Below, piece by piece: positions 5,156 through 44,691 of a stretch of 44,691 bases of DNA. How positions within the stretch are numbered: the first letter of the stretch is position 1; every line of letters starts with the position of its first letter. The DNA is from Verrucomicrobiaceae bacterium (GTDB taxonomy: Bacteria; Verrucomicrobiota; Verrucomicrobiia; Verrucomicrobiales; Akkermansiaceae), in contig JAIYDT010000002.1 of the NCBI GenBank assembly GCA_027487355.1, positions 1 through 44,691 of the forward strand, written 5' to 3'. A program made the position numbers and the translations under genes. The notes beneath the pieces were generated by a model that did not search any database, was not told where the DNA came from, and worked only from the letters and a program-made list of their open reading frames with translations.

Positions 5156-6670
5156 TCAGCGTTTGACCGGCAAGGCCACCGGAACGGCCGCCGGGGTCGG
5201 AAGCGTGGGCAGGTTCCTGGTCGCGTCCGCCGCGATCGCCGCCCGGTAGTTGGCATAGGCACGGAAGAGTTCGGCCTGGGCATCCACTTCCAGCACCCGC
5301 GCATCGAACGAGGCCTGCTCGCGGATCTGAAGGGCCAGAAGATCGGTGGCTCCCTGTTTCAGCCGCTCATTCTCGGCCTCCTCCAACAGTCCTGCCAACT
5401 CGACGTTCTTTCGAGTCATTTCCAGTGCCTCGTGGGCGGCCACAAGGGCGCTGAAACTGTCGCGCACATCAGCCGTGATCCGATCCCGTGCGAACTGCCG
5501 ATCATTCTCCAGACGCGACAGGGTCGCATCCGCCACTTCCATCCGCCCCTTCGCCTCGTTCCGTTCCAGTGGCACCTTCAGCTCCACCTTGGCTTCGACC
5601 TCGCTGCGCTCCAGATCCTTGGGGCGGCCGTCGCCATAGAACTGGCCGGCTTCGATGCCCACATCCAGATTGGGAAGGAGGTTGTTCTTTGCCAACCGCC
5701 GGTCGATTTCCGTGCGCTTCACCAGTAGGTCGATGCGACGCAGCTCGGGCCGCATGTTCAGCGCCCGCGCCAAATCGGCTGGCACCTGGGCATCGTGAAC
5801 CTTCGGCAATGTGCCGAATGTGGAGGGCACCCGGGCGCGGTCCACCAGCACCGGCATCGCCTTGTCGCGGGTCCGGAGAAACAGTGAAAGCTCGATCGTC
5901 GCCGCCTCGAAGCGCCGCTTTGCCTGCACCACGGCGATTTGACGACTGACCATCAAGCGCTGGTTGTCGATCCGGATGATCGGCGCGCTGGCCCCGTTCT
6001 TGACCTGTTCGGCAATGGCTCCGTCGCGGTCATTGGCGATGCGAAGCAACTCCTCAGTGAGGGAGAGCCTTTGGCCACTGGCAGTCCACTGGTAATAACT
6101 GACCGTGGCCGTACGGATGAAATCCAGATACTGCCTGAGAATGATCGGATCCGCCAACTCCTGATCGATCTGCGCCTGCCAGAGGGCGGCACGCCTGCGG
6201 TCGATCGTGCCATCCCGCAGCAGCGGAATCCTGAATCCCAGAACCCCTTCGCCGTCGACGCTGGTACGATCCTTGTTGTAGTTCGGCAGGAAACCGCTGC
6301 TCAGCCGGTAGCCCCCATAGACGCTGCCGCCCCAGAAGGGCAGCGGCTGCTCGAGGAGGGCATACCCGGTGTTGCCATCATAGTAGCCCGCCAGGTTGAA
6401 GGAGCCGCCGACATTCAGGTTGAGATCGAAGGCACCCGCCGCCTGCCGGACGCGGCCATTCGCGATGTCCTGCTCGATCAGGGCCGCCAGATACGGCGGA
6501 TACTGGCTCTGGACCGAACTCAGCACCTCGGACAAGCTCAGTGACTGGACCTTGGCCACCGGCTTCGGCGCGGCGGACGCCGGGAAAGCTGCCAAGGCCA
6601 CGCAAGCCGCAAGCAACCAGCCCCAGCGACACGCTGGACCAGTTAGGGAAAAGATCGGCAGCCGTTTCAT
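5156..6670 (-). CDS. TolC family outer membrane efflux/secretion protein
   Basis: Signal peptide, long coiled-coil/OEP-like repeats, adjacent to HlyD and ABC genes. Confidence 0.85.
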   Translation of the reverse strand: MKRLPIFSLTGPACRWGWLLAACVALAAFPASAAPKPVAKVQSLSLSEVLSSVQSQYPPYLAALIEQDIANGRVRQAAGAFDLNLNVGGSFNLAGYYDGNTGYALLEQPLPFWGGSVYGGYRLSSGFLPNYNKDRTSVDGEGVLGFRIPLLRDGTIDRRRAALWQAQIDQELADPIILRQYLDFIRTATVSYYQWTASGQRLSLTEELLRIANDRDGAIAEQVKNGASAPIIRIDNQRLMVSRQIAVVQAKRRFEAATIELSLFLRTRDKAMPVLVDRARVPSTFGTLPKVHDAQVPADLARALNMRPELRRIDLLVKRTEIDRRLAKNNLLPNLDVGIEAGQFYGDGRPKDLERSEVEAKVELKVPLERNEAKGRMEVADATLSRLENDRQFARDRITADVRDSFSALVAAHEALEMTRKNVELAGLLEEAENERLKQGATDLLALQIREQASFDARVLEVDAQAELFRAYANYRAAIAADATRNLPTLPTPAAVPVALPVKR

Positions 6671-7956
6671 TTCTTGGAGGGGTCAAGTTTCGCATCCTCA
6701 TCCGGCTGCATCGGCGGGAAGCCGTTGATCTGTCGCCACAATTCAAACCAAAGCGGAACCTGCTTGAGCATGATCCAGCCATTCGCGCGGGCTCCCTGCC
6801 GCAGCCAATGATCCCGGTCCGGCCATTCCACGGTCACCGGTCCATCGCCACGATCCACCACGTCCGGTGCCGGCCCAACCACCACGCGGAACTTGCCCTT
6901 GCCGTTGTCCGCCGGGTCCACGAACACGACCTCGCCGCCGAAGGTTCCGACCGCCAACTGCGGCCAACCGATCATCTGCACCGCAGGCCAGCCCTCGAAG
7001 GCCAACCGCACCGGACTGCCCGGTGTAGCGACCCCGTTGACCACCTTCCGCGACTGGATCAGCGGCATGTCATTTCCATCGACGAGGATCTCCACAAAGC
7101 GGCTGTCGGTTTCCGGAATGATGACACAGATCGGCGATCCCGGCCGGAGATAGGTCCCATCCGTCACCGGCACCTGGAGCACAATGCCATCGCGTGGAGC
7201 CTCCACGACCTGGCGTTCGTTCTGGCTGATCTGGATTCCGATCATTGCCAGATCACGTTCGGCGGCTGCCACTTCGCCGAGGGCCGTCCCCTTCGAGGCC
7301 TCGGTGGAGGCGATCGACGCGTCGAAGTCATTGCGGGTCCGCTCCAGGTTCGCTTCTGAGGATTTCAACTCCGCCTCGGTAGAATCCCTGGAAAGCGTGG
7401 CCAGCTCCAGGTTGCGCTGCGATTCCAGCTTCTTCTCATGCAGGTCACGGGTCCGCCTGAAGTTCAACTGGGCGGTCTCGGCCGAGATCTTGGCGGCCAC
7501 CACCCGCTGCTCCGCCCCCGCGATCGCCTGGTTCTTTGCGAGCTGCTGCTGCGCCACCTGGGACGCCAGGGACTCCACACGGCCCATTGCGAAATCCCGA
7601 CGACTTGAAATCGCGGTCTGCTGGGCGCGCAGGTTGATCATGAGGTTCGGATCGTTGTCCTGGATCTCGATGATTAGGTCGCCCTTCTTCACACGCTGGC
7701 CTTCCATCACGTTGAGTCGCTTCACCCGTCCTGAAACCTGGGCCTCGACGTTGATCCGGCGGTCCAATGGGTCAAAGGCGATCACCCGTCCGGTTCCCGA
7801 GACGAACTGACGCCAGGGCAGCACCAGCACGGCAATGATCAACCCGATGAAGCCGATCAGCAGCAGGCGGCTGAACAGGCGGGTGAACTTCGCGGAGCCC
7901 GCGAGCCCCATGGCGGGGAGGGTCGGGACGACAGTCGTCGGTTCCTGGGATTTCAT
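6667..7956 (-). CDS. HlyD family periplasmic adaptor
   Basis: Single N-terminal TM, biotinyl-lipoyl-like INVEAQVSGRVKRLNVMEGQRVKKGDLIIEIQDNDP, coiled coil, barrel-sandwich return EAPRDGIVLQVPVTDGTYLRPGSPI. Confidence 0.9.
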   Translation of the reverse strand: MKSQEPTTVVPTLPAMGLAGSAKFTRLFSRLLLIGFIGLIIAVLVLPWRQFVSGTGRVIAFDPLDRRINVEAQVSGRVKRLNVMEGQRVKKGDLIIEIQDNDPNLMINLRAQQTAISSRRDFAMGRVESLASQVAQQQLAKNQAIAGAEQRVVAAKISAETAQLNFRRTRDLHEKKLESQRNLELATLSRDSTEAELKSSEANLERTRNDFDASIASTEASKGTALGEVAAAERDLAMIGIQISQNERQVVEAPRDGIVLQVPVTDGTYLRPGSPICVIIPETDSRFVEILVDGNDMPLIQSRKVVNGVATPGSPVRLAFEGWPAVQMIGWPQLAVGTFGGEVVFVDPADNGKGKFRVVVGPAPDVVDRGDGPVTVEWPDRDHWLRQGARANGWIMLKQVPLWFELWRQINGFPPMQPDEDAKLDPSKK

Positions 7957-10124
7957 GACGATGGATTGAGGCGTTCTTTCTCCGATTCGGACGAGGTTCC
8001 GTCATTCAGATGACACGGGGCAAGCTGGATGATCTGGTCACAGACCCGGGTGACATCATGATCGCGGGTGGCGAGAATGACCGTCCAGGGGCGGCAGGGA
8101 TCGAGGATGGCGGTTTGAAGCAGGCTGAAGGACTCCGGATCGAGGCTGTCGAAAAGCTCATCGATCATCAGCAGCCTGGGGTTCTGAACGATCGCCCTCG
8201 CCAGCAGGAGCCGGGTCCTCTGGTTGCCACTCAACGGCGCGCCGCCGACGGTGAGGTGCTGGTTCATGCCTTCGGGACGCCGCAGCAGAACGTCCAGCAG
8301 CCCGACCTTATCCAAAGCGTCTCGAATCTCGTCCAGCCCCACGTCGTCGCGCCCCATGCGCAGGTTGTCCACCACGGTGCCATCGACGATGTCATCCCGC
8401 CGCAGCAGCATCACCCGCTCGCGCAGGGACTCGAGATGCCAGCTCCTGAGGTCGAGCCCGTCCACGCTCACGTGACCCGCCGTGGGAGTGCGGAGGCCGA
8501 AGAGGATGTCGAGTAGGGAACTCGCTCCGGAGCCATGCGGTCCGACGATGGCGACTCGGCTGCTGGGAAGAATGACGAACGACTTGTCCTCGAAAAGGGG
8601 CTCATGATAGCCGAAGGATACGCCACTCGCGCGGATTTCGGCACCCTCAGCGGAGATGACTCCCTTTTCTCCACCCGCCCGCTCAGTTTCGAGATCGAAG
8701 ATATGCCCCAGCTTGTCCATGGCCGCCATGGCGTCATACCAGGCTTCGAGCTTTTTCCCCATCTTGGCCATGGCTGCCACGATGCTGCTCATGATCAACT
8801 CGGATGCCACCAACTGACCAAGAGTGATCTGCTGGCTCACCACCAGCCAGCCCCCGAGCACCAGGAGGATCGCCGCCGCCGCCACGGAAAGGATCAGCAG
8901 GGCCACGATCTGGCGCATCACCACCCTGAAATGGGCCGCGCGACACCGGACATACTTTGAGGCGAAATGGTCGGACCGCTCGGAGGCCAGCTTGTAGCCA
9001 CCCGGCCCCTTGAACGCGAAGGGAAAGGCCGCCACCTGCTCGAACCAGTTCACCAGATCATACTTCACCCGGGACTCAGCGATGCTGGTGGAGACGGCCC
9101 CTTTTCCCAACAGCCAGAGGCACAGGACGATCAAGGCCAGGAGCACCACCACGAACAACAACATCAGCGGATGATACAGCGCCAGCAGCAGCATCCCGAT
9201 CAGGCTGCCAAAGATCAGGTTGATGCCATCCAGCAACAACATCGACGTGCTCTTCTGGGCCGTCACCACATCAAAAAAGCGGTTCACCAACTCTGGCGCG
9301 TGGACTCCCTCCAAGGCATCCGCCCGCACCCGTGGCAGACGGTAGGCCAGATCCGAGGCGGTACGCACGAAGATGCGACGCTGGATGATATCGGAAAGAT
9401 AATACTGGAATCCACTGACAAGCGCCTGCAGACCCAGAGCTCCAAAAAGGGCAATGGCCAGCACGATGATGGCCTGGACGTAGGGCTGCGATTGGCCGCC
9501 GAAGGCCAGGTTGCTGACCACCGAATCCACCGCCAGCGGAGCCGCCAGATAAAGCACGCCCGACATCACGGAGAAGATCAACAGGGTCACGATCTCCTGG
9601 CGCTCCCCCTTGAGAAGACGCATGAATCGACGGGTGGGTGAAACGGAGTCATGATCCCCATGGCCGTGCCCATGACCCGCATCGCCGGGTATGCTCGCGC
9701 TGGCCGCGATCGAAAGAGGCTGGGCCAGCCCGGCTTCCACCATCTCGTCAGGTCCATTGAGGCCCAATAAATCCACCAGCTCCCGCCGGCTCAGACTGAC
9801 CCGATGAGTTGGATGGTCGCCGTCTGTCACCCTGACCTTGAACCAGCCCGCATAGGTCACCACCACCCAGCGCGACTCCCGCGCACACCACAGGGCCAGC
9901 GGCATGTCCTCGCGTGCGTGCCACAGCGCTTCGGAAAGCTTCTGGCGGATCGGCGTCACCCGGAACCCCGCATCGGGAGCCACCGAGACCAACTGGGCCA
10001 GGGGCTCGTCGTTCGATTGCGCCCTCTGATGCAGAATCGCCCCCAATCGCTCCGGATCGGCTCGTCCTCCGGTGATGGCGACAAGTTGAACCAACGTGGG
10101 GATGGTGATGGCAGTGGGAATCAT
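7953..10124 (-). CDS. Type I secretion-like ABC transporter (C39-like domain + permease + NBD) with degenerate Walker A
   Basis: N-terminal C39-like region without an evident catalytic Cys, TM domain, NBD with IVGPHGSGASSLLD (K->A), signature LSGNQ, Walker B LLMIDELFDSLDPE. Confidence 0.88.
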   Translation of the reverse strand: MIPTAITIPTLVQLVAITGGRADPERLGAILHQRAQSNDEPLAQLVSVAPDAGFRVTPIRQKLSEALWHAREDMPLALWCARESRWVVVTYAGWFKVRVTDGDHPTHRVSLSRRELVDLLGLNGPDEMVEAGLAQPLSIAASASIPGDAGHGHGHGDHDSVSPTRRFMRLLKGERQEIVTLLIFSVMSGVLYLAAPLAVDSVVSNLAFGGQSQPYVQAIIVLAIALFGALGLQALVSGFQYYLSDIIQRRIFVRTASDLAYRLPRVRADALEGVHAPELVNRFFDVVTAQKSTSMLLLDGINLIFGSLIGMLLLALYHPLMLLFVVVLLALIVLCLWLLGKGAVSTSIAESRVKYDLVNWFEQVAAFPFAFKGPGGYKLASERSDHFASKYVRCRAAHFRVVMRQIVALLILSVAAAAILLVLGGWLVVSQQITLGQLVASELIMSSIVAAMAKMGKKLEAWYDAMAAMDKLGHIFDLETERAGGEKGVISAEGAEIRASGVSFGYHEPLFEDKSFVILPSSRVAIVGPHGSGASSLLDILFGLRTPTAGHVSVDGLDLRSWHLESLRERVMLLRRDDIVDGTVVDNLRMGRDDVGLDEIRDALDKVGLLDVLLRRPEGMNQHLTVGGAPLSGNQRTRLLLARAIVQNPRLLMIDELFDSLDPESFSLLQTAILDPCRPWTVILATRDHDVTRVCDQIIQLAPCHLNDGTSSESEKERLNPSS

Positions 10125-35341: not shown

Positions 35342-37180
35342 TTACGGATTGTAGGGCTTGATGGAGATGACCTTGAGGGTCTGCTTGCCGTCGGTGACGG
35401 GGTCGTGGGCCTCGACGGTTTCGCCGACCTTGCGGCCGAAGAAAGCGGCGCCGAGTTCCGAGAGATAAGAAAGGTGGTTCTTTTCCGGATCGGAATCCCA
35501 GGCTCCAAGGAGGTTGTAAACCGTTTCCTCGCCCTTGTCGTTGGCGACCGTAAGGATGGTGCCGATGTTGGCGAAGGAGGCGTCCGCGCCCTTGAAGTCG
35601 GTGCCCCGGGCGCGGTTCACTTCCTTCTGCAGTTCGGTCTTGCGGTTGTTGAGATACTTCTGGTGGTCCTTGGCGGACTTATACTCGAAGTTCTCACGAA
35701 GGTCGCCATGCTCGCGCGCCACCGAGATCTCGCGGGTGTTCTGAGGGATGCGATTGCGGATGATGTCGTCCAGCTCGGTCTTCTTGCGTTCGAGGCTTTC
35801 CCAAGAAACAAGGAGGTCTTCCTCGCGCTTCGAGGACTCGCCTGAGACGAGTTCGCCTGTCTCGGGCTTGGCCTTGATGACGCGGGCCATCAGGGACTTT
35901 TTCTCAAGCTCACCGAAGACCGCGCACTCAAGCATGCGGCGTGCGAAGTTGCGGGCCTCGTTGACGTCCATGATGCTGACCAGATCGCTGAGCAGCTTCT
36001 TATCCTCGGTGAGGAGGGTCTGGAGGCGCGATGTCTTGCGGGGACCGTCGGCAAGGTGGTCGTTTTCGAGAAGGTTGAGGATCGAGGCGCCGACCTCCGG
36101 GCTGAAGACGTCCTGCGAAGCGCTGGAACGCTCACGGCAGATCCAGATCAGCGCGTCCGGGCCCAGGGCACGGCGGGCGATGGCAGAACGGAGGTGAACG
36201 GACAGGGCAGGAAGCTCATTGCGCTCGACCAGAAGGCGGGCGATTTCCGTGACACCACGCGCACCGACGCGGTCAAAGACCTGCACGATGCGCTCGACCC
36301 AGCCGTCACCGAAGGCAGCCGGGAAAGCTTCGTAAATGGTGCGCTGGCGGATCGAGGGAAGCTGTCCGATTTCATCCGCAAGGCGCTGGGCCTCCACGGT
36401 CTGGAGCATGTCGGAAATCCGCACGGCGGTGGGATCGAGTTCGAGGGCCTTGGAGTTTCCGATCACCTCATCGCGGGCGGCAAGGAGTTGGAGAGACTGG
36501 CCAAGCTGGACACGGGCGGACTTGCGGACGCCTTCGTCGATGTCGCTAACGAGTTTCTTGAGGGCGTCGAGATCGGCGTCGAAGGCGCGAATGTCGGCCG
36601 CGATGGACTCGAGCGCCTTGATCATGCCCTTCAGGTCGCGGGCAGCTTCGAAATCGGCCACCATCGCCTGGGCGGGGGTGCGGTCGCCATCACGAAGCAT
36701 CAGGGCCTCGGTGCGCTTCTGCGGGACGACCACCCGGCGGCTTTCGCGCAGGGCCTTTTTGGCATTGTCCCACCACTTGCGGAAGTCGTCAGCGGAGATC
36801 ACCGCGCCCGAAAGTTCCTTTTCGAGTGCGTCACCGGTCATTGATCCGCCGTGGCTTTCAAGGAGGTGAACGACCAGCTCGACGGGATCCTTTTTCGCAA
36901 GGGCGCGGAGCTCTTCGAGCTGCTCGACCTTCTTTGCGCGGAAATCGTCCGCCGGGATCCACTCGGTCTTTTGAATCGCGAATTGCAGTTCCATCGTCTG
37001 GGCGGCGGACCGCTCGAAATCGATGGTTACCTTTTTGCTGGGAAGATCCCAATCGATCACCTTACCAGCGCCCCAGGATTTGTGAAGACAGAAACTTCCG
37101 GGAGAAAGTTGGGTCAATCGCTCACCTACCGGCTTGGGAATGCGTCCAGCTTCAACCAAACGTGCCACATCAGAATGCAT
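35342..37180 (-). CDS. Very long GreA/GreB-family transcript cleavage factor
   Basis: C-terminal Gre module with coiled coil ISVAREHGDLRENFEYKSAKDHQKYLNNRKTELQ and TDGKQTLKVISIKPYNP; ~450-residue N-terminal extension. Confidence 0.88.
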   Translation of the reverse strand: MHSDVARLVEAGRIPKPVGERLTQLSPGSFCLHKSWGAGKVIDWDLPSKKVTIDFERSAAQTMELQFAIQKTEWIPADDFRAKKVEQLEELRALAKKDPVELVVHLLESHGGSMTGDALEKELSGAVISADDFRKWWDNAKKALRESRRVVVPQKRTEALMLRDGDRTPAQAMVADFEAARDLKGMIKALESIAADIRAFDADLDALKKLVSDIDEGVRKSARVQLGQSLQLLAARDEVIGNSKALELDPTAVRISDMLQTVEAQRLADEIGQLPSIRQRTIYEAFPAAFGDGWVERIVQVFDRVGARGVTEIARLLVERNELPALSVHLRSAIARRALGPDALIWICRERSSASQDVFSPEVGASILNLLENDHLADGPRKTSRLQTLLTEDKKLLSDLVSIMDVNEARNFARRMLECAVFGELEKKSLMARVIKAKPETGELVSGESSKREEDLLVSWESLERKKTELDDIIRNRIPQNTREISVAREHGDLRENFEYKSAKDHQKYLNNRKTELQKEVNRARGTDFKGADASFANIGTILTVANDKGEETVYNLLGAWDSDPEKNHLSYLSELGAAFFGRKVGETVEAHDPVTDGKQTLKVISIKPYNP

Positions 37181-37272
37181 GACGCAAAAGATGGGAAGCA
37201 GCCGGACAAAACGCAAGGCATTCCAAGGTTAAATGCCTTTTGCGCCCGAATCCGCAGCGTTTCCGCCTGAAA

Positions 37273-38049
37273 TCAACGGACTTCGGATGGAACCGGAACG
37301 ACGCGCGGCCGGGGTGGGCGGACGCTTTCGATCTTTCCTTCGAGGACGTTGTCGAGCTGCTTGCGGACGACGCAGACCTTCCGGCGCCAGGCCTCAGGAA
37401 CGGCGGTGGTGTCTCCGTTCGCAGGCAAGTTGCCGTTGAAAATCAGGGCTTCCGCTGCGTCACGGATTTCCAGTTCATATCCGCCACCGTCGGGATTGCG
37501 CTTCAGCAGGACCTTGCCGGCATCCGTGACGAGGCTGGCGGTGCGGTTCTCGGGATTGGTCGAATACCAACGTGGCCCTTCGCCTGGGATCAGGGCGGCG
37601 CTGAGCTCAGGCCCCAAGCCAAGCGGACGGTTCAGAGGGGCCGAACCGAGGGTCATCTCAACCTCCAAGGCGCGACCGCTGCGAAACACCGCGAGTTTCA
37701 CCACTTCGCCGGGCTTTTTCAGTCGGAGCAGGGTGGCGAGCTGAGCCTCGTTGACGAGGAGTTGATCGCCAAACTTCCAGACGACGTCGAGCGGCTGGAG
37801 GCCACAGGATTCCGCCGGGCCTTTGGCATCGACGGTCTGGATCACGAATCCAATGCCCGTCGGCAATTCCGGAAGATGGGCGCGGGTGGCCTCATCGGGC
37901 TTTGCAACCCGGCAACCGAGCCAAGGAGGTCCCTCCACCAGCTTCTTCGGCTGGACCAGCGGCGGGTCTGCCGATGGTGCGACCTGATCGGCCTGCAAAC
38001 CCTGAAGCAGCAGGACGGAAAGGGCGATGTAGGGAAACACTTTCATCAT
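37273..38049 (-). CDS. Secreted PDZ-domain protein
   Basis: Signal peptide, GIGFVIQTVDAKGPAESCGLQPLDVVWKFGDQLLVNEAQLATLLRLKKPGEVVKLAVFR. Confidence 0.75.
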   Translation of the reverse strand: MMKVFPYIALSVLLLQGLQADQVAPSADPPLVQPKKLVEGPPWLGCRVAKPDEATRAHLPELPTGIGFVIQTVDAKGPAESCGLQPLDVVWKFGDQLLVNEAQLATLLRLKKPGEVVKLAVFRSGRALEVEMTLGSAPLNRPLGLGPELSAALIPGEGPRWYSTNPENRTASLVTDAGKVLLKRNPDGGGYELEIRDAAEALIFNGNLPANGDTTAVPEAWRRKVCVVRKQLDNVLEGKIESVRPPRPRVVPVPSEVR

Positions 38050-38516
38050 CAGAAGTCACTGACGGGCATGAGCAGGATCTCATCCCTGGGTTCCGAAATC
38101 TTGACCGTGTAGCCGGTCTCCTCATCGCGGACCACATCTTCGCTGACCATCCGCAGCCGGACGGCCTGCATCGCGGAGCCGTCGGGATCGGCGACCCAGC
38201 CCTCGTCGGACATGGATTCCACCCGCTCGGATTTTTCCACCAGGAAGGCCCCCAGCGAGGCCACGTCCGACCGAACCTGGGGCGAGGAAACGATTTCCGC
38301 ACCGCTCTTGAGAAGGCCAGGAAGGGTCACCATGGCGGCAATTGCAGCCGCGATGCCGACGCCGATCACGGGTCGTTTCCAATCCCGGACCCGGACGATT
38401 TTCGACTCCGCAGCGAGCCCATCGAGCATGTCCTCAATGGAACGCTGGCCGGACGAGCTCATCGCGGTCGGCATCAGACGGGCGAGAGCGGCTTCGATGG
38501 GATCAGGCGCTTGCAT
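38049..38516 (-). CDS. Putative anti-sigma-like single-TM protein
   Basis: 155 aa, cytoplasmic N-terminus then VIGVGIAAAIAAMVTLPGLL; overlaps the sigma factor gene. Confidence 0.55.
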   Translation of the reverse strand: MQAPDPIEAALARLMPTAMSSSGQRSIEDMLDGLAAESKIVRVRDWKRPVIGVGIAAAIAAMVTLPGLLKSGAEIVSSPQVRSDVASLGAFLVEKSERVESMSDEGWVADPDGSAMQAVRLRMVSEDVVRDEETGYTVKISEPRDEILLMPVSDF

Positions 38517-39033
38517 GGCGGTTTTCCTTCAGGCGACGGAGTTCGTGAGAAAGTTGGTCGAGAGCGTAGCGATAGCGGGACGCTGCGGTGTTGGGGGAAA
38601 TCGCGAGGGTTTCCGAGATCTGAGCAAACGTCAGGCCACCCCAGGTCTTCATCACGACGACCTCACGCAGCTTCGGGCTGAGTTTTTCGACAGCCTCGCG
38701 AAGGAAGACGGCTTCTTCATCGTCCTCCATGACCGGATCAAGCCAGACGTCTTGGAAGTCATTGAGGTAAATCACTGAGCCCTCGCGGTTGCGGCGGCGG
38801 GTTTCGGAGCGGTGGTGGTTGAGACCACAGAAGCGGATGGTGGAAAAGGCCAGCGGGAGGTCGGGAGGCGTCGCGCCCTTGTCGGCCTGGTAGTGCCAAA
38901 GGCGGAGGATGGCTTCCTGCACCAGATCCTCAGCGTCCTGCTTGCACTGGCTCCAGCCACGCGCGAACAAAAGCAGCCGCGGACCGTTCTCGGTCAGCCA
39001 CTGTTTCCATTCGATTGCCAACGATTGCGCCAT
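38503..39033 (-). CDS. ECF-like RNA polymerase sigma factor
   Basis: WSQCKQDAEDLVQEAILRLW and KLREVVVMKTWGGLTFAQISETLAISPNTAASRYRYALDQLSHEL. Confidence 0.9.
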   Translation of the reverse strand: MAQSLAIEWKQWLTENGPRLLLFARGWSQCKQDAEDLVQEAILRLWHYQADKGATPPDLPLAFSTIRFCGLNHHRSETRRRNREGSVIYLNDFQDVWLDPVMEDDEEAVFLREAVEKLSPKLREVVVMKTWGGLTFAQISETLAISPNTAASRYRYALDQLSHELRRLKENRHASA

Positions 39034-39821: not shown

Positions 39822-42800
39822 GTGCATTTTTCTGGTCCGCAGCCGTGTCTGATTGGTATTCGACTCTGCGTGGCAGGATTCGTGGAAAAACCGTTGATCG
39901 TGGATGGATTCGAGTCCCCCGAGTCGTGGATGCCCGTGGCGTCAGGGCTGGCGGAACTGAAGCTGGACAGCCCGGAGTCCCCACGAGGCCGCTCTTTGCG
40001 GATGAGCTTCGATTTCAACGGCGGAGGCGGCTTCGTGGTGGCGCGAAAGGAAATCCGAATTCCGCTTTCCGAGACCTGGGAGTTCCGATTCCGCCTGCGG
40101 GGCGAGGTGCCGCCCAATCGCTTCGAGTTCAAGATCGTCGATCCCTCCGGCACCAATGTCTGGCGCTGGAGCGAGGAACCGCTGGTGGTTTCCGATGACT
40201 GGCGCGAAGTGGTGATCCCCAGCAGCCGGATGCCCTTCGCCTGGGGACCGGCCGGCGGCGGGGTCCCTTCCGAGATCGGCGTGATCGAGTTCGCCATCGC
40301 CGCCGGCGAAGGCGGCGCGGGGACCCTGAGCATCGAGGATTTCCAATGGGTGGACACGGGTCCGCTGGTGGCCGTTTCCTGCGAGGCATCCTCCGGAAAG
40401 GCCGAATCACTGCTTGCCGGGGACGGCTGGAGCAGCGATGCCAGCGATGAAGCCCCATGGGTCGAGCTGGACTTCGGCCGCCCCCGCGAGCTCGGCGGCC
40501 TGATCCTCCACTGGCAGCCCGAGGGCGCACGGGATTTGAAAATCGAGGCTCTGCACGGCAGCGAATGGCGGGAGATTCTGGAATTGCACCGGGTCCTAGG
40601 CACCCGCACCGCCGTGCCCTTGCAAGGTCCCGCCACCCAGCGTGTCCGCCTCACCTTTCTGCCCGGAGCCGCCCTCGGGAGCATCGAATGGAAAGGACCC
40701 GAATTCTCGCGCTCTGACGACGAATTCCTCCACGCCATCGCCACCTCTTCCGAGCCCGGTGCCTTTCCAAAATACTGGCTGCGACGCCAGACCCTGCTCA
40801 CCCCGATCGGCTCGCCCGACGGTGGCCCCCAGTCCATGATGAACGAGGAAGGCCTCGTGGAAATCGATGCCGCCAGCCCGTCGATCGAGCCCTTCCTCCA
40901 TGACGGCGAGCGACTCTGGACCTGGCAAGACGCCACCCTCCACCAATCGCTCGAAGACGGTTGGATGCCCCTCCCCCGTTCGCACTGGTCCTGCGGGGAG
41001 CTTTCCCTCGAAGTCGCCGCCGAACCCGCAGAAGGCGGCACCCTTGTGCGCTACACGATTGGGAACTCCTCCAGCCAGCCCCGATCCATCCAGCTCCACC
41101 TCGCGATCCGTCCCTTCCAGGCGACTCCGCCCTGGCAGCACCACGGCCGCCTCGGCGGAAAGAGCGCCATTTCCAGCATCGAGTTCGAAGGCCCGGTCTG
41201 CCTGCTGGACGGCACCCGCCGGATCATCCCGATGAGCCCACCGGATCGAACCGCCGCCCAGCCTTTCGCCTCCGGTCCGCTCGTCGAAAACCTCCGCAGC
41301 GGCCACCCGCCCTCCGCCCAGAAGGCAGTGGACCCCCTCGGTCTCGCCGAGGCGGTCTTCACCTTCCAGATCGATCTCCCAGCCGGAGCATCTGAGGAAC
41401 GGTCCGTCTTCCTCCCCTTCGATCACGCCTCCCGAGCCCCCGACCAGCCGGTGTTGAAATCCGTGAAACGGCAGTGGAACGAAGCCCTCGCCCAAACCCG
41501 CTTCGACGTCCCACCCGACTGGGAAGACGCCGCCCAAGCCTGGAAAACCGCCGCCGCCCACATCCTCGTCAACCGCCACCGCGCGGCCATCCACCCCGGA
41601 CCGCGACGCTACACACGCGCCTGGATTCGCGATGGCGTCGTCATGGGTGCCGCTCTGGCCCGCTCCGGCAGCGTCGGTCCGTATGTCGATTTCATGCGCT
41701 GGTATGAACCCTTCCTTCGCAACGACGGCTTCGTTCCCTGCTGCGTCGATGAAAAGGGGCCTGACTGGCTCGTCGAGTATGACAGCCAGGGCCAATGGCT
41801 CTACGGCATCGCCGAGTGCCACCGCTTCGGCGCAGGCGATTCCTTCGCAAACGACCTCTGGCCGTCCGCCCTGCGCTGCATCCACCACACCCGCGAGCTG
41901 CTTGAAAGCCGCCCGGCGGAAAGCGAGGATCTCCCTGACAAGCGCGCCTTTCGCGGCCTTCTGCCTGAATCCGCCAGCCACGAGGGCTATCTCGCCCATC
42001 CCGTCCATTCCTACTGGGACGACTTCTGGGCCATCCGCGGACTGATCGACATCCAGCGGCTCGCCCACCATCTCGCCCGACCGGAAAGCGAGCAGTCGAT
42101 GATCCGGGAAATGGCTTCCACGCTGATCGCCGCCGTCCGTGAATCCCTCCGCCTCACCATGGAACTACGGGAGATCCCGTACATCCCCGGCTCGGTCGAG
42201 TGGGCGGACTTCGATCCCGCCGCCACCGCCGTGGCGATGATGATCCTCGACGGCCTCGAGGTCCTTCCCGCCGAGGGATTGCAGGACACCTTCGACCGCT
42301 ACCTGAAAGGCTTTCGCGACCGCATCCGCGGCGCCATGCCCTGGAACAACTACTCCGCCTACGAAATGCGGATCGTTTCCGCCCTCACCCGCCTCGGACG
42401 TCGGGCCGATGCCATCGAGCTGCTCACTTTCCTCCTTCAGGACCGCCGACCCGCCGTCTGGAACCAGTGGCCGGAAATCACCTGGAAGGACCCGCAGAGC
42501 CCCGGCCACTTCGGCGACCTGCCGCACACCTGGATCGGCGCGGAATACGTGCTGGGCTTCGCCGGACTCTTCGCCCACGAGCGCGCAGCCGATGACACCC
42601 TCGTCCTGGCCGCCGGCATGCCGCTGGAATGGTTCGCCAATGGCCGCACCAACGGCGTGAGCCAGTTCTCCACCTACTATGGCCCCGTGACCTTCTCACT
42701 GAAACTCAGCGGCGGGAAATGGCACCTCGATCTCACCCGCCCCCCAGCCTCACCCGGCGGCGGAATCGAAGTCCGGCTGCCCCATGTTTCCGGAGTCTCC

Positions 42801-42860
42801 CTGCTTCATCACGATGGGAACGATCTGCCGATCGACCCGCTGGGAATCGTCAGGCTCTGA
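39822..42860 (+). CDS. Large F5/8-type-C-like / six-hairpin glycosidase-like protein
   Basis: 1012 aa; N-terminal beta-sandwich-like regions with EAPWVELDFGRPRELGGLILHW, C-terminal (alpha/alpha)6-like region RRYTRAWIRDGVVMGAALARSG. Confidence 0.65.
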   Translation: MHFSGPQPCLIGIRLCVAGFVEKPLIVDGFESPESWMPVASGLAELKLDSPESPRGRSLRMSFDFNGGGGFVVARKEIRIPLSETWEFRFRLRGEVPPNRFEFKIVDPSGTNVWRWSEEPLVVSDDWREVVIPSSRMPFAWGPAGGGVPSEIGVIEFAIAAGEGGAGTLSIEDFQWVDTGPLVAVSCEASSGKAESLLAGDGWSSDASDEAPWVELDFGRPRELGGLILHWQPEGARDLKIEALHGSEWREILELHRVLGTRTAVPLQGPATQRVRLTFLPGAALGSIEWKGPEFSRSDDEFLHAIATSSEPGAFPKYWLRRQTLLTPIGSPDGGPQSMMNEEGLVEIDAASPSIEPFLHDGERLWTWQDATLHQSLEDGWMPLPRSHWSCGELSLEVAAEPAEGGTLVRYTIGNSSSQPRSIQLHLAIRPFQATPPWQHHGRLGGKSAISSIEFEGPVCLLDGTRRIIPMSPPDRTAAQPFASGPLVENLRSGHPPSAQKAVDPLGLAEAVFTFQIDLPAGASEERSVFLPFDHASRAPDQPVLKSVKRQWNEALAQTRFDVPPDWEDAAQAWKTAAAHILVNRHRAAIHPGPRRYTRAWIRDGVVMGAALARSGSVGPYVDFMRWYEPFLRNDGFVPCCVDEKGPDWLVEYDSQGQWLYGIAECHRFGAGDSFANDLWPSALRCIHHTRELLESRPAESEDLPDKRAFRGLLPESASHEGYLAHPVHSYWDDFWAIRGLIDIQRLAHHLARPESEQSMIREMASTLIAAVRESLRLTMELREIPYIPGSVEWADFDPAATAVAMMILDGLEVLPAEGLQDTFDRYLKGFRDRIRGAMPWNNYSAYEMRIVSALTRLGRRADAIELLTFLLQDRRPAVWNQWPEITWKDPQSPGHFGDLPHTWIGAEYVLGFAGLFAHERAADDTLVLAAGMPLEWFANGRTNGVSQFSTYYGPVTFSLKLSGGKWHLDLTRPPASPGGGIEVRLPHVSGVSLLHHDGNDLPIDPLGIVRL

Positions 42861-44573
42861 AGGCTCGATCGGCTCCTCCTTCACCGCCCGGATCTGAGGG
42901 ACATAACTCCACGTGCCGTCCATCTCGATCGTCAGCAGCGCATCAAAAAGCTCACTGGCCTCGCTGTTGCCGCCGAGGATCAGACTGCCCTGCCCCATTT
43001 TCCGAAACGCCGTCAGCACATCCTCGAGTTCGGGGCTTTTCAAGGTCGTTCCAGGACGGTCGATAACGATGAAATCCGGATTCGCCGCGATCGCCCGGAC
43101 GCAGGAAAACAACTGCTGCTCCGCCAGTGAAAGCACCTCGTTCCAGTCGCGGATCGTGTCCACCCCGCCAACCCTCGCCACCACCTCATCCAGCTTGAGC
43201 AGGCGCAGCGCCTGACGGGTCCGCAGATCATTCACGCGGAAGTCACCGCCCTCCACCCTCATGATCTGCCGCAGCGTGCCGGTGGGAAGATAAGGGCGCT
43301 CCGGCAGCAACATCAGACGCCCTTCCTCCGGCAGCACCAGCGTGCCGGATCCACGGTCACAGTCGCCCGCGATCAGGTGGAAAAGCGCCCGCTGCGCCAC
43401 CGCATTGGTCCCACAAACCAGAACGTTCGCCCGCTCCGGGATCGCCAGATCCAGATCCCTGACAAGTGGCAGCCCCGTTTCGATCGCCAACAGCTCGACT
43501 GACTCGAAGCTAAGCCGCCGCGCTTCAATGCGCACCGCGATCGGCATCTCCGGTCGGTCGATGGCCCGCTCGATCGACCCCGCCAGCTCACTCAACCGCG
43601 CGATCACCGCCGCGAAGGCTGAGATCGACTGGAACTGCGTCACAATCAGCGAAAACGCCCCGAGCAAGATCGCAAAGGCTCCCGCCGACTGCGTGATCAC
43701 GCCGAACTCCACCTTGTGGCTGAAAAACAGGGGAGCCACGATCAGCGCCGGGATGATCTGGATCATCAGGTTGTAGCCGGTCGTGAAAAAGGACAGGTTC
43801 CGGTTCACCGCGATCAGCCGCCGCATGTTCGAGGCCCAGTCCCCGATCCGCTGTGAGAGCCTGCGGCTGAAAAGCGGCTCGTTGTGCGTCAGCGCCACCG
43901 CATCCGCATGCTCGCGCACGTGCACCAGCTCCGAGCGGAAATTTGCCTCCCGGTCGGACTGCCGGAAATTCAGCCCGATCAGCGGCCGCCCCAGCCGGAT
44001 CGCCAGGGCCGAGCCCCCGGCCGCATAGATCACCGCCACCACGAACAACGTCTGACTGATCGACCACAGCACCCCGGAAAACGCGATCACCGTGAACGTT
44101 CCATTCAACAGCAGCAGGGCAAAGCTCAGCGATGTCGTCGTGAACGCACGCACATCCTCCGCGATCCGCTGGTCCGGATTCGCCACGCTTTCCGTGTCCG
44201 CATGCCGCCGCAGGCAATGCTTCAGGTAGGCCTCCGTCAGTTGCCGCGTCAGCGACTCCCGCCACAGCAGACCCAGCCGCTCCTCACAGAAGCGGAAAAA
44301 CACCGCCGCCGCCGTCGAGCACGCAAACATCACGATGTAGAGGATCGCCTGCTGGGCGAAGACACTCGGATTCCGACGCTCGATCGCCGACATGAAATCC
44401 CGGCCCACGTAGCTGGTCATCACGTTCAAGGCATTGATCACCAGCATCAAGAGCACCAGCAGGATCGCCAGCCGGCGGCCCTTCCCCCCCTCGTCCGACT
44501 GGAGAAACCCCTGCACCACCTGGGCAAGCCTCTTCCGCGTCAAACGGTCGAAGGAGACAGTGCCGGTAGCCAT
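42750..44573 (-). CDS. SbmA/YddA-like ABC half-transporter with degenerate NBD
   Basis: N-terminal TM domain with LNVMTSYVGRDFMSAIERRN and NPDQRIAEDVRAF; NBD keeps LPERPYLPTGTLRQ and DWNEVLSLAEQQLF but lacks Walker A and the H-loop. Confidence 0.82.
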   Translation of the reverse strand: MATGTVSFDRLTRKRLAQVVQGFLQSDEGGKGRRLAILLVLLMLVINALNVMTSYVGRDFMSAIERRNPSVFAQQAILYIVMFACSTAAAVFFRFCEERLGLLWRESLTRQLTEAYLKHCLRRHADTESVANPDQRIAEDVRAFTTTSLSFALLLLNGTFTVIAFSGVLWSISQTLFVVAVIYAAGGSALAIRLGRPLIGLNFRQSDREANFRSELVHVREHADAVALTHNEPLFSRRLSQRIGDWASNMRRLIAVNRNLSFFTTGYNLMIQIIPALIVAPLFFSHKVEFGVITQSAGAFAILLGAFSLIVTQFQSISAFAAVIARLSELAGSIERAIDRPEMPIAVRIEARRLSFESVELLAIETGLPLVRDLDLAIPERANVLVCGTNAVAQRALFHLIAGDCDRGSGTLVLPEEGRLMLLPERPYLPTGTLRQIMRVEGGDFRVNDLRTRQALRLLKLDEVVARVGGVDTIRDWNEVLSLAEQQLFSCVRAIAANPDFIVIDRPGTTLKSPELEDVLTAFRKMGQGSLILGGNSEASELFDALLTIEMDGTWSYVPQIRAVKEEPIEPSEPDDSQRVDRQIVPIVMKQGDSGNMGQPDFDSAAG

Positions 44574-44663
44574 GAGGGAAACAGCCATAGCGCCCCACAA
44601 ACCTTGATGCAAAGCCAATTGGCCTAACATGTTTAAGATTCCCTGATCAACGGCTGGAGGCCC

Positions 44664-44691
44664 CAAATCAAAAATCCAAAATCAACAATCC
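44664..44691. repeat. Short-unit AT-rich intergenic repeat at window edge
   Basis: CAAATCAAAAATCCAAAATCAACAATCC; runs off the window. Confidence 0.5.

Follow-up and report, generated by a model that had tools for sequence, protein, structure and literature searches.

The locus described here raises the question of what a half ABC transporter is for once its nucleotide-binding domain (NBD) has lost the residues of an active ATPase. The gene lies at 42750-44588 on the minus strand of the window, the entire 44,691-nucleotide contig of a draft genome (89% complete) of a Verrucomicrobiaceae bacterium, and encodes 612 amino acids from an ATG start at 44588 to the stop at 42750-42752. A TTG at 44666 provides a second open start (42750-44666, minus strand), and every sequence string on which the original prediction of an SbmA/YddA-like transporter with an open frame was built was recovered in the frame beginning at 44588 or 44666. 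The closest named relatives, at 96 and 90% protein identity, are Verrucomicrobiaceae metagenome assemblies. Pfam matches were obtained to PF06472 (E=9.6e-36) and PF05992 (E=8.6e-17). As in the ATP-driven YddA/BclA/Rv1819c type, an N-terminal ABC_membrane_2 transmembrane domain (TMD; residues 15-345, 43554-44546, minus strand, placed by Pfam and alignment) is fused to an NBD of the same family (residues 370-565, 42894-43481, minus strand, placed by alignment and AlphaFold2). The nearest PDB relative by sequence was Rv1819c (6tqe, E=1e-38), and a Foldseek search with the model returned ABCD transporters and Rv1819c on top (Rv1819c at rank 3). The AlphaFold2 single-chain model had low confidence over the TMD, while the NBD was modeled with good confidence (pLDDT mostly 75-89). 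A promoter and terminator scan found nothing.

Elsewhere on the contig, a likely type I secretion cluster (5156-10124, minus strand) combines genes for an outer membrane efflux protein and an HlyD-like adaptor with one for an ABC protein of 723 aa, whose match to a membrane domain is weak. An ECF sigma factor gene followed by overlapping frames for an unassigned 155-aa protein and a PDZ-domain protein (37273-39033, minus strand) forms an apparent sigma/regulator operon. The ORF at 35342-37216 (minus strand) encodes a 624-aa protein whose GreA/GreB transcription factor domain is confined to residues 470-620, with no Pfam match in the first 450 residues.

Alignment of the NBD with 22 canonical paralogues revealed that the Walker A lysine, Q-loop glutamine, Walker B glutamate and H-loop histidine found in the ATP-driven type are all missing. 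The Walker A remnant reads GTNAVAQR instead of GxxGxGKS (43389-43412, all motifs on the minus strand), with the lysine replaced by Gln399 (43392-43394), the serine by Arg400 and two glycines also gone. The replacements predicted for the Q-loop (Glu430, 43299-43301), the catalytic glutamate of Walker B (Arg511, 43056-43058) and the H-loop (Gly540, 42969-42971) were confirmed. The statement that nearly all ATPase motifs had been lost was slightly too broad in two respects, since the Walker B aspartate is retained (Asp510; motif end at 43056-43061) and the signature is near intact. SLAEQ (43116-43130) stands where canonical proteins have SLGEQ, and the longer string LSLAEQQ is only a mild change from the LSLGEQQ of canonical family paralogues and of the 96% relative (L002). 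The window-clade NBD therefore almost certainly no longer hydrolyzes ATP, to judge from these motifs. In this it differs from the half-transporter Rv1819c (mycobacterial BacA), which scores best among solved structures across both domains and is ATP-driven (PMC10960864).

This degenerate state is not peculiar to the window gene but characterizes a whole clade of orthologues. Among 54 aligned full or near-full orthologues all were degenerate, each lacking the Walker B glutamate and/or the Q-loop glutamine. These two residues were retained in one of the 54 each and the H-loop histidine in none, while the Walker A lysine was kept in 38 and lost in 16, the signature serine was kept in 48 and the Walker B aspartate in 53. 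The replacement residues were nearly fixed, most clearly the glutamate at the Q-loop (50/54). Where Walker A lysine, Walker B aspartate and signature are retained, ATP binding without hydrolysis is possible. One canonical-type protein (L055, 4910-6622) lacks only the H-loop histidine (Asn) and one signature glutamine (Arg); it branches beside the degenerate clade with weak support and perhaps represents an early step of decay.

Sequencing error or chance as the source of the altered motifs was excluded by their presence in independent assemblies and by the dN/dS values. The degenerate state recurs in orthologues with 96, 90 and 72% identity, and the decay of the frame in close relatives that would have marked a plain pseudogene was not observed, as the frames were open at all three levels of identity and in nearly all relatives across four families of the order. 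The recommended alignment and dN/dS comparison of orthologues gave values for near pairs of 0.03-0.17 in the NBD and 0.02-0.14 in the TMD, so that the two domains are similar in magnitude, with the NBD slightly higher than canonical NBDs (0.035-0.08). Higher values were obtained for a more distant pair (window-L005; 0.26 for the TMD and 0.23 for the NBD). Within the window sub-clade constraint was clear in both domains but somewhat looser in the NBD (0.13-0.16) than in the TMD (0.04-0.08). The degenerate NBD is, on these sequence comparisons, maintained by selection and not decaying, which bears out the suggestion of a preserved pseudo-ATPase.

Trees built on the TMD alone united all degenerate proteins with a set of NBD-less proteins in one clade (support 100/98 and 100/99 in two trees), although long branches meet in the tree, mainly among the outgroups. 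The NBD-less proteins were nested within the pseudo-NBD clade through a series of starred forks, and an AU test rejected the pseudo-NBD proteins as a clade excluding them (p=4e-5). NBD-less descendants thus apparently arose once from the pseudo-NBD state, which is itself, as read from its distribution, long-lived and stable, being common to four families of the Verrucomicrobiales. Beyond the order, one member was found on a Rhizobium plasmid (L143) and an NBD-less one (L139) in a different class of the phylum; in the rest of the phylum sample no clade member was recognized and the few other matches were weak. The plasmid copy (L143, 4857-6662, Rhizobium sp. CB3171) is the sole proteobacterial member found; its NBD is even more degraded, and its upstream neighbors on the same strand are genes for a glycogen phosphorylase and an acetate kinase-like protein. 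An NBD-less protein of Gloeothece citriformis (L146) was left out of the counts, since the transposase gene directly behind it raises the possibility of an ABC protein truncated by an IS.

The original prediction had suggested that the window protein may be at an intermediate stage toward SbmA-type transporters that work without any NBD. The intermediate character is supported by the NBD-less proteins descending from this state, but the direction is not. SbmA/BacA lies beyond a 100/99 branch separating it from the window clade, and an AU test rejected placing the NBD-less proteins beside SbmA (p=8e-13). The window protein and SbmA are related in their TMD (PF05992 match), and the NBD-less members of the clade look SbmA-like in build. 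The window protein differs from SbmA/BacA (the SLiPT class) in its retained pseudo-NBD, in its position on another branch and in the alignment, where the N-terminal TM0 region of SbmA has no counterpart.

What the pseudo-NBD may still do is indicated by the region it would contact. The second cytoplasmic loop of the window protein (residues 228-242, 43863-43907, minus strand), which we take to contain the coupling helix because type IV ABC folds generally have it there, was delimited for a comparison of conservation. Mean pairwise identity in this region was 0.88 among canonical proteins, 0.55 among the sister pseudo-NBD proteins and 0.28 among the NBD-less proteins, with mean TMD identity at 0.72 in the NBD-less versus 0.75 in the sister pseudo-NBD proteins. 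The loop stays conserved alongside a pseudo-NBD and decays only where the NBD has been lost, a pattern that would be expected if the pseudo-NBD still docks on the TMD there.

A comparison of the genes surrounding the transporter at 47 loci brought out a recurrent large enzyme of three related kinds, namely a 1,2-beta-oligoglucan phosphorylase (SOGP; PDB 5h3z match, E=4e-179), a cyclic-glucan-synthase-like GH94 protein and the type found in the window. The window enzyme (39822-42860, plus strand, 1012 aa) is convergent with the transporter gene, and the two overlap tail to tail by 111 bp (42750-42860), a length identical in two relatives (L002 and L003). Pfam and AlphaFold2 assign it a CBM32/F5-8C-like domain (PF00754) and a GH94-type fold, a beta-sandwich with an (alpha/alpha)6 enzyme fold (residues 290-1012, pTM 0.85). 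The likeness to GH94 is by fold only (TM about 0.6, 11% identity), and neither single-sequence nor profile searches of Pfam and PDB gave a sequence-level identity beyond the CBM32-like domain. The protein looks cytosolic and may belong to an undescribed family of glycoside hydrolases or phosphorylases. At one locus (L110) a window-type enzyme and GH94 are joined in one frame. No signal peptide was evident by eye in any of the three kinds.

SOGP genes lie on the same strand 3' of the transporter, at a distance of no more than about 50 bases in the cases with an assignable start, while the other two kinds are convergent with it, mostly with few bases between the stops. An enzyme of these kinds (window type included) was present at 28 of 48 transporter loci, counting one partial locus (L115), versus one of 25 canonical loci (Fisher p=3e-6, a value inflated by the shared ancestry that such co-occurrence statistics ignore). 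The sole exception among the canonical loci is L047 (856-3951), with a window-type enzyme nearby that has 41% identity to the copy of L002. SOGP adjoins NBD-less transporters (L039, L040, L043, L045, L049, L056, L113 and L139) as well as pseudo-NBD transporters (L104, L105 and L126). This shared partner indicates that the role survives loss of the NBD, which would be dispensable for it.

The association extended to whole genomes. Among 387 genomes of the order, 56 encoded a pseudo-NBD or NBD-less transporter by a hand tally that excluded fragments. SOGP was present in about 32 of these versus 2 of the 331 others, again a contrast whose significance common descent would inflate. Of the 24 transporter genomes without SOGP, 21 encoded a GH94 protein with the sandwich domain of the synthase type, the frame usually measuring about 1100-1330 aa, and in the window genome a SOGP-like gene is cut by a contig end. 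By our count about 54 of 56 carried either SOGP or a cyclic-glucan-synthase-like GH94, which is very rare in transporter-free controls. Among 16 such controls, 12 lacked the synthase-type sandwich domain, and in the other four it was confined to frames as long as a full synthase (2347-2970 aa). The contrast between genomes with and without the transporter also holds inside the window's own genus.

Our preferred reading, which we hold to be probable though far from secure, is an ATP-independent homodimeric glycan transporter that has kept its pseudo-NBD and works inward, with cytosolic phosphorylases pulling transport. It would be an ancient, selectively maintained half-transporter of the YddA/BclA/Rv1819c type acting as a homodimer without ATP hydrolysis and cycling by alternating access. 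The motif loss, the purifying selection, the age of the state, the nesting of the NBD-less proteins and the tight linkage to the enzymes come from the sequences compared; the homodimer, the lack of hydrolysis, the substrate, the inward direction and the energy source are what we infer from them. The pseudo-NBD would fold and dock on the TMD through the coupling helix as a structural or regulatory scaffold. Glycan oligosaccharides would enter the cytoplasm through the transporter, where phosphorylase-fold enzymes would consume them, phosphorolysis drawing transport downhill. Because the neighboring genes encode carbohydrate enzymes, the substrates would be glycans rather than peptides, with oligosaccharides of beta-1,2-glucan or something similar as the likeliest candidates, and for the family the linked SOGP or related GH94 enzyme is what a beta-1,2-glucan utilization locus would contain. 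A comparable arrangement exists in Listeria, where SOGP lies beside a transporter whose proposed role is the uptake of beta-1,2-glucan (PMC3960220). The Listeria cluster has a putative ABC-type system, unlike the loci described here, at which the adjoining transporter is a pseudo-ATPase or NBD-less.

Instead of being pulled by phosphorolysis, transport could be secondary active, coupled to protons or other ions through residues outside the glutamate ladder of SbmA, which we regard as a serious but rather unlikely alternative. SbmA itself is a proton-driven example of the fold, as stated in a 2026 study (PMC13316013), and residue 220 is acidic in every pseudo-NBD protein and in most of the NBD-less ones, Gly, Ser or Lys in canonical proteins and Glu in SbmA. 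The ladder of SbmA (E193, E203, E269, E276, E287 and E378) is represented in the window protein only at E193 and E276, positions also shared by canonical paralogues, while E203, E269, E287 and E378 are replaced by Leu, Asn, Arg and Ala. With four of the six glutamates missing, coupling of the SbmA type is not indicated, and the SbmA route suggested at the outset is supported neither here nor by the tree.

It appears unlikely that the NBDs act as an ATP-binding switch, binding the nucleotide without hydrolyzing it and thereby gating or regulating a passive or ion-coupled transporter. The frequent retention of the Walker A lysine (38/54), Walker B aspartate (53/54) and signature serine (48/54) would suit such a switch, but the window protein lacks the Walker A lysine, serine and two glycines, the lysine is lost in 16 of the 54 orthologues, and the NBD-less relatives retain the same enzyme partner.

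Export or release of a glucan made in the cytosol, rather than import, seems still less probable. Phosphorylases are reversible and can run in the synthetic direction, so the presence of the enzyme alone leaves the direction of transport unfixed, and the ABC transporter Cgt exports cyclic glucans in Brucella (PMC11842490). Against export, the transporter is missing from two genomes (G098 and G155) that encode a protein as large as a full-length synthase, and the absence of a synthase domain from transporter genomes would favor import. The domain in question, PF10091, is that of GH144 and also gives matches within full-length synthases. It occurred in none of the 23 transporter genomes searched for it but in 3 of 17 controls, two of them inside a synthase-sized frame. 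As a candidate for the missing glucanase that would generate the oligosaccharides, a GH144-type protein was accordingly discarded.

Pairing with a canonical half-transporter, in which impaired sites would remain usable as in asymmetric ABC exporters, is improbable. Many transporters are known in which one site is degenerate (PMC7756269), and some genomes do encode a canonical paralogue, including two with the 72% orthologues (G131 and G082). In TAP, TM287/288, TmrAB and MRP1 the Walker B glutamate and often the H-loop histidine are altered in an NBD as in the window protein, but these transporters keep a second active site, while many genomes of the window clade have no canonical partner of the family. 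The degenerate protein was the only PF06472 protein in a dozen genomes that are 92-99% complete (G013, G045, G069, G076, G125, G129, G135, G139, G141, G172, G188 and G192), for which such a heterodimer was rejected, and the window genome, though only 89% complete, likewise yielded no other. A decaying pseudogene, finally, is scarcely credible despite the motif loss and one frameshifted TMD/NBD pair among the relatives (L037), given open frames in four families, dN/dS well below 1 and fixed new residues such as the Q-loop glutamate.

SbmA has been proposed to derive from a YddA-like transporter whose TMD and NBD became separated, a step on which the 2026 study could only speculate (PMC13316013), and a survey of SbmA/BacA and BclA names four phyla that do not include Verrucomicrobiota (PMC12003926). 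The passages searched in the two papers mention neither Verrucomicrobiota nor degenerate NBDs, and a search of the open-access literature for Verrucomicrobia together with SbmA and ABC transporters found nothing. The clade described here is a separate lineage in which canonical, pseudo-ATPase and NBD-less proteins are extant and partner enzymes are shared; since all three forms survive, the order of events can be read, with the hydrolysis motifs lost first and the NBD and coupling helix later. We tentatively suggest that it could represent a second, independent passage from an ABC transporter to an ATP-independent one, with the pseudo-ATPase stage still widespread. Hydrolysis would have been lost while the NBD persisted as a docked scaffold, phosphorolysis taking over the energetic role of ATP, and NBD and coupling helix would then have disappeared in one sub-lineage with the partner enzyme unchanged. 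If the link to glycans is true, these bacteria would take up glycans without spending fuel and combine this route with energy-conserving phosphorolysis.
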